Assembly (NCBI GenBank): GCA_021414085.1
Contig: JAIOPC010000010.1
Coordinates: 124,001 to 188,000, forward strand
From: Actinomycetes bacterium
GTDB taxonomy: Bacteria > Actinomycetota > Acidimicrobiia > Acidimicrobiales > Ilumatobacteraceae
Reading direction: 5' to 3'
DNA length: 64,000 nucleotides
Shown here: positions 26,275 to 28,247 of the stretch, one piece after another
Numbering within the stretch: position 1 is the first letter of the stretch
How the letters are laid out: each line of letters starts with the position of its first letter
Notes under the pieces: model-generated
The model's database searches: none
The model's input: the letters and a program-made list of their open reading frames with translations, nothing else
What the model was told of the DNA's origin: nothing
Made by a program: the position numbers and the translations under genes

Positions 26275-27240
26275 TTAGCGCCGTCCGCGTGTGGCGACGT
26301 CGGGGATACGTTCCACCACACGCAGACGAGCGCTACCAGCCCGCCGATTGTTTGCTTGTTCTGCTTTCGAGGGTGTGCGCGGCACTCCGCGCACAATGCG
26401 CACCGTCTGCACCGCGTCGCACACGCAAGGAAGTTCCGGCGGGCACGCGCAGTCGCCGGTTGCGGCCGCGCGCATTCGGTCCTTGACGATGCGATCCTCG
26501 CCTGAGTGGTACGACAGCACAGCCACGCGCCCACCGGGAACGGTGCGCTCAATCGCGGTATCGATGGCTGGCGCCAGCGCATCAAGCTCGCCGTTTACTT
26601 CGATGCGAATCGCTTGGAACGTGCGCTTGGCAGGGTGCCCGCCGGTGCGTCGCGCAGCAGCAGGAATAGCCGCGACAACGATCTCGGCCAGCACAGCCGT
26701 GGATTCAATTGGACGGGCGGCCACGATTGCGGCGGCGATTCGGCGCGCGAAGCGCTCGTCGCCGTAACGCTGGATCACGTGGGCCAAGTCGGCGGCGGTG
26801 TAGCCGTTGACAACATCGGCCGCGGACCACGACTGCGTGCGGTCCATCCGCATGTCGAGGGCCGCATCGTTGCGGTAGCTGAAACCGCGCTCGGCGATGT
26901 CGAGTTGGGGCGAACTAACTCCGAGATCAAAGAGCGCACCGGACAACGTGTCGATAGAGAGTGCTGTCATGGCTTCGTCAAGGCGGTCGAACCGGCAGTG
27001 ATAGGTCCGCAACCGATCCCCGAAACGAGCGAGGCGAATCTGCGCTGCTGACAACGCATCTACGTCTCGATCGATGCCGAGTATCCCGATCTGCGGCCAC
27101 CGCTCGAGCAGTTGCTCGCTGTGACCGCCCCCGCCGAGGGTGGCGTCGAGCACAAAGCCCGGCGGAACATCCTCGAAGAGCGCAACGATCTCGTCCGCCA
27201 TAACAGGCTGGTGGTGAAAGCTTTCAGACGAAGCACTCAT
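26275..27240 (-). CDS. rsmH: 16S rRNA m4C1402 methyltransferase (RsmH/MraW)
   Basis: A 321-residue SAM-dependent enzyme that N4-methylates C1402 of 16S rRNA at the P site. Seen: HHQPVMADEIVALF, the SAM loop LDATLGGGGHSEQLL, GALFDLGVSSPQLDIAERGF, RTFQAIRIEVNGELDAL and VLSYHSGEDRIVK. The ATG at 27240 begins family sequence. An upstream in-frame extension runs through the leader hairpin and is rejected. There is no strong Shine-Dalgarno, which fits control by the structured leader. Confidence 0.95.
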   Translation of the reverse strand: MSASSESFHHQPVMADEIVALFEDVPPGFVLDATLGGGGHSEQLLERWPQIGILGIDRDVDALSAAQIRLARFGDRLRTYHCRFDRLDEAMTALSIDTLSGALFDLGVSSPQLDIAERGFSYRNDAALDMRMDRTQSWSAADVVNGYTAADLAHVIQRYGDERFARRIAAAIVAARPIESTAVLAEIVVAAIPAAARRTGGHPAKRTFQAIRIEVNGELDALAPAIDTAIERTVPGGRVAVLSYHSGEDRIVKDRMRAAATGDCACPPELPCVCDAVQTVRIVRGVPRTPSKAEQANNRRAGSARLRVVERIPDVATRGRR

Positions 27241-27273
27241 GGACGGGTCGTGTGGTTGGGGAATCTCGGCGTT

Positions 27274-27399
27274 CGATCGGCCATCTGCAGCCCTCCGGTA
27301 AGCGAGTGCTTCCGGGATGTCTCCCCGGTGGAGCGAGACCAAAGCGGGTGGAGGAGGGCTTTGCATCGTGCTCGCCGGAAGGCTGCAGATGGCCGGTCG
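27274..27399 (-). ncRNA. Structured leader of rsmH, candidate mraW RNA motif
   Basis: The transcript of this strand folds into a 25-base-pair outer stem (27375-27399 with 27274-27298; one C-A mismatch and one G-U pair), extended by CGAG/CTCG. It encloses two hairpins: CAAAGC/GCUUUG (27340-27363) with the 12-base loop CCUCCUCCACCC, and CCGGG/CCCGG (27312-27328). Weinberg and colleagues described the mraW motif as a conserved structured RNA upstream of mraW in actinobacteria, and position and strand match. No U-tract follows, so it is not a simple terminator. The CCUCC loop copies the anti-Shine-Dalgarno sequence. Confidence 0.65.
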
Positions 27400-27511
27400 G
27401 TTGTGGGACTGTTACTTGTTCTGCTGGTTCGAAGTTGGGCTGCCTCTTCCTCGCTTTCGTCTTGCTGGTGTGGTTGCCTTTGAATGAATCGTTGAAGGGA
27501 CTGGTCAGAAC

Positions 27512-27940
27512 TCACTCGAGCGCCGCGTCGTGGCCAGCGAGACCGCCGGTGCCAGCGCCGTCAACTCGCGCATGGCGTTCCGGTGCCCAGATCTCAAGAC
27601 GATCAACCCGGCCCGTCACCACGACTGGTGTGCCGACACTGATCTCGGCATAGCCGCGTAGCTCCTCTTCGACCGTCACGCGACCTTGTTTGTCGAGTTG
27701 CGCGTACTTCGCCGACGAGGCGATGGCGCGTAACTGGTTAAGAGGAACGTCGCCGGCACCCACCCGTGCACTCATCGCCGTCAGCTCGGCTTCGAAAACC
27801 GCAGCAGGAACGACGGTGACGCACTTGTCGCGTCCCTTGGCCAAGTAGCAGTTGTCGCCAAGGTGGTCGCGAAAGACAGCCGGCAAAGCCAGCCGACCCT
27901 TGTCGTCGAGTTGGCGTTCAAACGCCCCCACAAACAACAC
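27512..27940 (-). CDS. mraZ: MraZ transcriptional regulator
   Basis: A 142-residue protein with two AbrB-like SpoVT/MraZ repeats: FVGAFERQLDDKGRLALPAVFR near the N-terminus and QLDKQGRVTVEEELRGYAEI further on. MraZ rings bind tandem GGG-containing boxes upstream of their own gene and repress the dcw cluster. It is the first gene of the cluster, has a GTG start with AAAGGTGG upstream, and is preceded by a matching ladder of boxes. Confidence 0.93.
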   Translation of the reverse strand: MLFVGAFERQLDDKGRLALPAVFRDHLGDNCYLAKGRDKCVTVVPAAVFEAELTAMSARVGAGDVPLNQLRAIASSAKYAQLDKQGRVTVEEELRGYAEISVGTPVVVTGRVDRLEIWAPERHARVDGAGTGGLAGHDAALE

Positions 27941-28005
27941 GTCGCGTCACCACCTTTCCTTCTGCCGGCGCCTGCCTCAGGGTCAGCAAATGCGGACGGC
28001 GCAAG

Positions 28006-28069
28006 CCCGCAGATCCCCGCTCTTCCCCACTCTGCCCCCTAAATCCCCTATTGTCAACCCAATTGACCC
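28006..28069 (-). promoter_or_regulatory. MraZ-box ladder overlapping the mraZ promoter
   Basis: On the minus strand seven GGG-centred boxes (TAGGG, TTGGG, TAGGGG, AGGGGG, TGGGG, CGGGG, CGGG) occur at plus positions 28067, 28058, 28045, 28035, 28025, 28015 and 28006, mostly 10 bases apart. MraZ is known to bind direct GGG-type repeats with 10-base spacing. A perfect -35 TTGACA (28052-28057) lies inside the ladder; the best -10, CAGAGT (28029-28034), is weak. Autorepression of the dcw cluster is the expected result. Confidence 0.6.
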
Positions 28070-28075
28070 TATTTC

Positions 28076-28091
28076 GTGGTCCCGCGACCAC
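28076..28091. promoter_or_regulatory. 6-base inverted repeat in the mraZ/DUF1800 divergent region
   Basis: GTGGTC-CCGC-GACCAC is a perfect inverted repeat between the divergent mraZ and DUF1800 genes. It could be an operator or a small hairpin. The rest of the 307-base gap (27941-28247) holds the MraZ boxes and an ACGACAAC-rich low-complexity run (28171-28200) followed by a 12-base duplication (CCAACGAATCCG). Confidence 0.35.
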
Positions 28092-28247
28092 TTCTTGCTC
28101 GGAACGTGATGAAGTGACAGGCGCGAGCGGGCGATACCAGTGCACGGCCAGCAACGGTCGTCACAGCCAGAACAACAACGACCACGACAACGACAACGAC
28201 TGCCAATCCAACGAATCCGTCCAACGAATCCGCCAAGGAGCAACAGC

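Follow-up and report, generated by a model that had tools for sequence, protein, structure and literature searches.

A Covarying Leader RNA at the rsmH Start in Acidimicrobiia Pairs Up the Ribosome-Binding Site and Bears a Loop Resembling the C1402 Region of 16S rRNA

Most sampled genomes of the Acidimicrobiia carry a structured leader RNA that, wherever checked, stands before rsmH. It pairs the start of this gene, and its standing as a class-wide RNA family is well supported. We describe it from a stretch of DNA of 64,000 nucleotides (nt) belonging to a member of the Ilumatobacteraceae (contig JAIOPC010000010.1 of assembly GCA_021414085.1, positions 124,001 to 188,000; here called the window, with positions counted from its first letter). 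That the structure is real and conserved is as good as certain. The leader probably serves as a translational clamp over the Shine-Dalgarno (SD) sequence and the start codon, and the best explanation suggested by the sequence comparisons is translational feedback at the rsmH leader in response to RsmH, which we put forward tentatively, with slightly less than even confidence.

A structured RNA between mraZ and rsmH

As the first-pass annotation of this DNA had stated, mraZ and rsmH are separated by 271 bases on the minus strand. The rsmH gene (27240..26275, minus strand) matched NCBIfam TIGR00006 with 305.5 bits, above the cut-off of 154.3, and encodes the 16S rRNA m4C1402 methyltransferase. 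The mraZ gene (27940..27512, minus strand), which precedes rsmH in the operon, matched TIGR00242 with 66.1 bits (E = 3e-18), below the cut-off of 98.35. The order on the minus strand around the leader RNA is mraZ, rsmH, a gene for an FtsL-like protein, and a gene for a transpeptidase of the FtsI/SpoVD kind; only rsmH passes its NCBIfam cut-off, and the other three match below theirs.

The structured leader RNA as a whole occupies 27274..27399 on the minus strand. Read as minus-strand RNA from 27399 to 27274, it has a predicted folding energy of −74.1 kcal/mol (z = −8.05 versus dinucleotide shuffles), and 0 of 200 shuffles folded as well. The plus strand of the leader also folds (−77.9 kcal/mol, z = −6.2), as any long inverted repeat does on both strands. 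A covariance model built for the leader RNA (model R1) matched 27393..27280 with 96 bits in the sense orientation versus 36 bits in the antisense orientation, which favors an RNA made from the sense strand, as does the fact that sense wobble pairs would be A-C mismatches in the antisense. The RNA is single copy in the 3.2-Mb genome; up to an E value of 10, the search otherwise picked up only the two arms of the RNA itself and seven short fragments with low scores.

The outermost element, P1, is a long stem whose 5′ strand (27375..27399, minus strand) is the partner of the SD-bearing 3′ strand (27274..27298, minus strand), the latter holding the ribosome-binding site. A stem of 25 base pairs had been annotated here; the long stem is present, at 24 pairs and one mismatch. 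It encloses hairpin 1 (27331..27373, minus strand), bearing the conserved 12-nt loop CCUCCUCCACCC (27346..27357, minus strand; family consensus CCCNNACUCCGCCC), and hairpin 2 (CCGGGGAGACAUCCCGG; 27312..27328, minus strand). Both hairpins of the three-way junction described earlier were recovered, and the window's own minimum-energy fold adds a small third one (27311..27300); the junction itself is the structure voted from 40 relatives.

A 92-codon open frame (27237..27515, minus strand) runs as far as the rsmH start from a GTG that overlaps the stop codon of mraZ, and at least one frame is open through the leader in 38 of 40 aligned members (the exceptions being L023 and L034). By inspection, the open frame differs among members and loop lengths vary by single bases, pointing to an effect of high G+C content, and a continuous leader gene was rejected on these grounds. 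A simple consensus scan of the minus (sense) strand across 27200..28200 found no terminator-like site (hairpin plus U run) and no promoter-like site; transcription attenuation by the leader was rejected, as this stretch has no terminator-like site. Upstream of mraZ, at about 28057..28015 on the minus strand, TTGACA is followed by the G-runs GGGGA, GGGGG, GGGGA, and GGGGA at spacings of 9 to 11 nt, an arrangement that we take to resemble the MraZ operator repeats at the operon promoter (the MraZ box pattern); the promoter scan found no promoter-like site in this stretch.

Covariation and distribution of the leader RNA

Of 61 related genomes, 55, among them that of the window, supplied an rsmH locus (56 of the 61 had a match, one of which, G040, lay at a contig end and was left out). 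The leader fold is shared by 40 of these 55 loci, which make up alignment A1; the 15 loci that were left out as having no RNA are L013, L014, L025 to L033, L035, L047, L057, and L063. In A1, 88.5% of the cells fall in standard pairs versus a shuffled mean of 77.9%, and 38 of the 46 pairs carry double changes (changes on both sides; 202 cells) versus 24.1 in the shuffles, and none of 500 shuffles reached the observed value of any of the five measures used. Pairing fell to 37 to 46% when the partner strand was shifted by 1 to 3 columns. Double changes occur in 20 of 22 pairs of P1 (92.4% of cells paired), 8 of 10 pairs of hairpin 1 (86.1%), and 7 of 11 pairs of hairpin 2 (83.3%). The consensus structure was voted from single-sequence folds of the same 40 sequences, a procedure that favors it on percentage paired, so that more weight belongs to the counts of double changes. 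The covariation in homologous leaders on which the first-pass annotation had made its case depend was thus found, and its description of a structured, covarying rsmH leader with a loop that matters holds good in view of the 40 relatives and the conserved loop.

An RNAalifold consensus computed on A1 (28 pairs, of which 23 are double-changed) recovered P1 and its inner extension and did not recover hairpins 1 and 2, which it replaced by a pairing of CUCC with GGGG; support for these two hairpins comes from their double-change counts given above. The corresponding pseudoknot or kissing interaction of loop 1 with hairpin 2 was considered and rejected because there is hardly any variation in the CUCC and GGGG columns and the RNA can do without hairpin 2.

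At the class search threshold of E ≤ 0.01, model R1 matched 236 of 296 sampled Acidimicrobiia genomes, the remaining 60 having no match, and in a draw from the phylum it matched 22 of 396 genomes, all labeled Acidimicrobiia. Among 79 loci that do not belong to the class (70 rsmH leaders and 9 loci with mraW RNA matches, with a few places duplicated), it matched none up to an E value of 10. Of 80 titled rsmH loci, 19 gave sense matches, and no locus with a match had Bacillota or Clostridia in its title. Two metagenome bins titled Bifidobacterium breve (L207) and Ferrithrix thermotolerans (L210) carry the RNA; these titles may be wrong, and the first is likely a mislabel.

We checked the gene neighborhood in 45 loci (L084 to L128), which are the best-scoring loci of the class and phylum model searches, and rsmH adjoins the RNA on the sense strand in all 45. 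After 10 loci already in A1 and a short locus (L106) were dropped, the 34 new loci and the 40 aligned ones gave 74 distinct members. Several distant members of the class (L119, L121, and L125 to L128) are only 87 to 91 nt long; hairpin 2 is missing from them and P1 and the C-rich loop are kept, which makes P1 and the loop of hairpin 1 the core of the family. The family has no match in Rfam 15, and no description in print was found in a limited literature search, which covered sources other than a 2017 study that reportedly listed 224 candidate RNAs.

Among the 15 related loci without the RNA, the gap measures −16 to 70 nt in 11, two from the same genus have leaders of 127 and 142 nt, and the remaining two lack a match to mraZ. 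In the same-family loci L025 to L033 and L035, the estimated rsmH start mostly overlaps or adjoins the mraZ stop, as if direct coupling of mraZ and rsmH stood in place of the clamp. In the same-genus loci L013 and L014, the rsmH start reads GGGCUGCGAUG and GGGAUGCAAUG, respectively, resembling the inner 3′ strand of P1; by this resemblance, these loci look as though they had lost the clamp and retained the start site.

The ribosome-binding site lies within the stem

The part of the RNA most informative for its mechanism is the ribosome-binding site in the stem, a feature absent from the first-pass annotation. In the window, the 3′ strand of P1 reads CCGGAGGGCUGCAGAUGG, that is, GGAGGG, six bases, and AUG, and the SD GGAGGG (27291..27296, minus strand) has a mean predicted unpaired probability of 0.001. 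Because this strand bears both the SD and the start codon, the stem hides the ribosome-binding site. The SD and start codon lie in or at the edge of P1 in 50 of the 74 distinct members, and the window and these members thus have what marks a leader that sequesters its ribosome-binding site, an SD and a start codon paired in a conserved helix. The P1 SD and start are in frame with rsmH in 27 of the 74, 20 of these lying no more than 30 nt from where rsmH is expected to begin, and in 23 others they open an out-of-frame upstream open reading frame (uORF); 24 have neither by the strict SD pattern used, negatives that include L023 (a uORF with an AUGA overlap) and L122 and L124 (in-frame starts).

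The window's own AUG inside P1 opens a uORF of 15 codons (MADRTPRFPNHTTRP, stop UGA; 27237..27284, minus strand) whose UGA overlaps the rsmH AUG in a 4-nt AUGA, and no purine-rich SD was seen by eye directly upstream of the rsmH AUG. Of the 40 aligned members, 7 have a uORF that begins in P1 and runs into the rsmH start; in 5 of these the overlap is exactly 4 nt (AUGA).

Among the 40 relatives, wobbles within the inner P1 stem are strongly one-sided, with 57 U(5′)-G(3′) versus 9 G-U, and no such bias is seen in hairpin 1 (23 versus 33). This is the pattern expected if some other function kept the G-rich SD strand unchanged and its partner drifted. Among the 17 of 40 members that were picked for a start codon in P1, the predicted unpaired probability ranges from 0 to 0.115 for the SD and from 0 to 0.66 for the start codon, the maximum of 0.66 being that of L048; for the SD of 12 relatives without the RNA, it ranges from 0.02 to 0.69.

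Relationship to the mraW RNA

The mraW RNA (Rfam RF01746) appears as a table row in the part of Weinberg 2010 (PMC2864571) drawn on here. Like the leader RNA, it is cis-regulatory and lies upstream of rsmH (mraW) in Actinomycetota, and both have an extended helix and a conserved C-rich loop that begins with ACU (ACUUCCCC in the mraW RNA versus ACUCCGCCC in the leader RNA). In contrast, the mraW RNA is a single unbranched hairpin with ACUUCCCC as its terminal loop, whereas the leader RNA is branched in the window and in the voted consensus. Some distant Acidimicrobiia leaders without hairpin 2 are unbranched, unlike that of the window, and these versions of 87 to 91 nt are closer in outline to the mraW hairpin.

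The first-pass annotation had fitted the leader to the actinobacterial mraW motif. The position and strand upstream of rsmH agree with that, and the family assignment fails: a search with the Rfam mraW model, whose gathering score is 50 bits, gave no match in the window and, even up to an E value of 10, none at 27150..27600. No match above the cut-off was found in 60 Acidimicrobiia genomes either, 15 of which had sub-threshold matches (at best 21.3 bits, E = 0.08), and in the loci of seven relatives there was no match to RF01746 up to an E value of 0.5, the only row being a sub-threshold HgcC match. Among 198 genomes of the phylum, RF01746 exceeded its cut-off in 8, none of them Acidimicrobiia, and the Corynebacterium glutamicum control was recovered. 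Neither of R1 and RF01746 detected the other's family at the thresholds used. As score, loop, and fold all differ, membership of the leader RNA in RF01746 was rejected. Two weak matches of the window to microRNA families (E = 0.8 and 1.4) were dismissed as chance matches to the long stem.

Of 70 leaders not belonging to the class, five have ACUUCCCC in the 300 nt upstream of the RsmH profile match, at distances of 95 to 237 nt from it, which places the rsmH start outside the mraW hairpin. The sole CUCCGCCC in this stretch of the 70 leaders lies 11 nt before the RsmH match, apparently behind the start codon (L175). When the mraW RNA loop was compared with 16S rRNA, its best match was not the C1402 site, and the comparison does not support the mraW loop as a mimic of C1402. 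Given the same place before rsmH and the shared ACU at the beginning of both loops, distant kinship or convergent function of the two RNAs is possible.

Likeness of the loop to the 16S rRNA target of RsmH

Six of the seven invariant columns of A1 fall in the loop block of hairpin 1, and the exact family loop ACUCCGCCC is present in 57 of the 74 distinct members, as tallied by the first regular-expression hit, which misassigns a few members. The loop that had been read as an anti-SD is present in the window as described (CCUCCUCC) but is a local variant, since the family reads ACUCCGCCC. A further proposal, that the loop mimics the 3′ end of 16S rRNA, held in part: a link to the rRNA substrate is possible, and the best match lies not at the 3′ end but elsewhere in the molecule. 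When ACUCCGCCCG was compared with the 16S rRNA of the same genome, it agreed best with ACACCGCCCG, with 9 of 10 positions identical versus 7 of 10 for the next best. This site is 1396-1405 in Escherichia coli numbering, with C1402, the base methylated by RsmH, inside it.

With a weight matrix made from the alignment, the 16S segment covering C1402 ranks 1 of about 1,510 for all five column sets tried, and the 10-column block ACUCCGCCC(G) scores 11.4 bits there versus −0.3 for the runner-up. With shuffle P values of 0.0055 to 0.104, the likeness of the conserved element to the protein's own rRNA site is of moderate strength. In the 23S rRNA gene, whose end is cut by the contig, nothing exceeded 2.6 bits, the sole 11.4-bit match on that contig piece falling by coordinate on the neighboring 16S site; on the two strands of the window, 6 of about 128,000 positions reach at least 11.4 bits. 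When letters or columns were permuted, P was 0.004 to 0.11 for the match over C1402, depending on the portion of the loop taken, and 0.025 to 0.36 for an equally good match anywhere in the 16S rRNA. These values are not small because the loop and the 16S site are both C rich, and the likeness alone is modest. The window's own loop agrees with the 16S site at 7 of 10 positions by eye, with A at the equivalent of G1401, a poorer match than in most relatives, and for a longer, 21-base stretch of the hairpin, other places in the 16S rRNA match better than C1402. In L127, a single case, CUACCGCCCG replaces ACUCCGCCCG; this breaks the family block and shares eight consecutive letters with the C1402 site of 16S rRNA. 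By these comparisons, target mimicry of C1402 by the loop is a good but unproven lead.

Proposed mechanism and alternatives

We read the leader as a class-wide element for translational control of rsmH. P1, a covarying stem of about 22 bp, pairs an SD and a start codon, which in many lineages is the expected start of rsmH itself; in the window, the 15-codon uORF could pass ribosomes to rsmH via the AUGA overlap. The hairpin within the stem presents the near-invariant loop ACUCCGCCC, usually kept even where hairpin 2 is not, and we infer that a protein reads this loop. In the proposed feedback, surplus RsmH, with no immature 30S subunits left to modify, would bind the leader and keep the clamp closed, so that less of the enzyme is made; once 30S subunits draw RsmH away, nascent RNA or incoming ribosomes could open the clamp. 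RsmH is the candidate reader because the loop imitates 16S positions 1396-1405 with C1402 and because the RNA precedes rsmH wherever checked, an assignment that we consider possible and somewhat doubtful. Given the stability of P1, a simple equilibrium between its open and closed states looks implausible, and the sequence does not explain the opening of the stem.

There are precedents for such control. In autogenous control, an rRNA-binding protein binds a look-alike of its rRNA site in its own mRNA and blocks initiation, as in leaders of the S15/rpsO type. ErmC, an rRNA methyltransferase, has been reported to repress its own mRNA via a target-like structure, and its leader is chiefly known for drug-induced attenuation. 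Unlike the ribosomal protein leaders, the rsmH leader has an rRNA methyltransferase as its product, with binding that is putative, and ErmC and RsmH are different enzymes with different targets (A2058 of 23S rRNA for ErmC). An example of autogenous control given in the portion of PMC8470358 used here is rpsO in mycobacteria. The published biochemistry speaks partly against RsmH as the ligand: according to the parts of these sources on which we draw, E. coli RsmH and RsmI act on the 30S subunit and not on protein-free 16S rRNA (PMC5053481), and METTL15, the human homologue, shows no sequence preference in its binding of RNA, although it does bind single and double strands derived from h44 at about 1 to 2 micromolar (PMC10828496).

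Something else might read the same clamp in place of RsmH, be it RsmI, an assembly factor, a ribosomal protein, or the 30S subunit itself, or ribosomes coming from mraZ might open it; the likeness to C1402 would then be accidental or the mark of another decoding-center binder. We judge this a serious contender, though improbable taken by itself. The anatomy of the clamp is independent of its ligand, and the little taste of RsmH and its human homologue for naked RNA, so far as the cited parts of PMC5053481 and PMC10828496 go, would fit such a reader. Measured to a P1 cut back to 22 pairs, the distance from the mraZ stop is at most 20 nt in 3 of 40 members (L046, L051, and L052, at 10 to 18 nt) and at most 33 nt in 6 of 40 (also L038, L045, and L053), where a terminating ribosome could disturb the stem; in the other 34 members, the window included (about 112 nt), the stop is farther upstream. 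Further, the occurrence of the RNA before rsmH in 45 of 45 loci points to the rsmH product. An element for RNase processing or stability, in which an RNase III-like enzyme would cut the 22-bp helix between mraZ and rsmH and leave pieces of differing stability, could account for a long, nearly perfect helix in the gap and for a sense strand with no terminator- or promoter-like site across 27200..28200. It leaves unexplained both the near-invariant loop, kept when hairpin 2 is lost, and the SD and start codon in the 3′ strand of P1, and we consider it unlikely.

The reading of the first-pass annotation, in which the loop is an anti-SD pairing with an SD in cis, is very improbable in our judgment. 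Read from the sequence, the loop region AGCCCUCC of the window is complementary to GGAGGGCU of P1, 6-nt loop pairings to the P1 3′ strand (GGAGGG) and to hairpin 2 (GGGGAG) can be drawn, and runs of at least seven pairs occur within 150 nt downstream in 9 of 40 members and within 150 nt upstream in 3 of 40, as raw counts with no shuffled control. However, the SD is already paired by P1, and contiguous pairs between the loop and the P1 3′ strand number only 4 or 5 in 32 of 40 members, 6 in six, 9 in one, and none in one. Across the 40 members, no convincing cis partner for the loop was found within 150 nt on either side, in the P1 3′ strand, or in hairpin 2, positions not being compared among members. 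The long inverted repeat might also suggest a repeat, a mobile element, or a DNA cruciform with no role as RNA, which the covariation refutes for practical purposes; the single genome copy, the class-wide place before rsmH, and the compensatory changes with sense-strand wobbles speak against it as well.

Implications for rsmH and the division operon

In many bacteria, mraZ and rsmH are the first genes of the dcw operon, and the place of an rRNA methyltransferase at the head of a division and cell wall operon is an old puzzle. In its most extended form, RsmH-responsive feedback would mean that RsmH regulates its own synthesis through a decoy of its 16S target set in the clamp, perhaps methylating the leader at the cytidine equivalent to C1402, and that the system is ancestral to the class and couples the operon to 30S assembly, the mraW RNA being a second solution, separately evolved or diverged. 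We consider this combination of claims rather unlikely to hold in full. A class-wide RNA at the rsmH start with a target-like loop would supply a concrete link from ribosome maturation to the expression of rsmH, which perhaps extends to the expression of the downstream ftsL and ftsI. As a covarying family without a counterpart in Rfam 15, the leader RNA also gives a clue to the signal to which the unexplained mraW RNA may respond.
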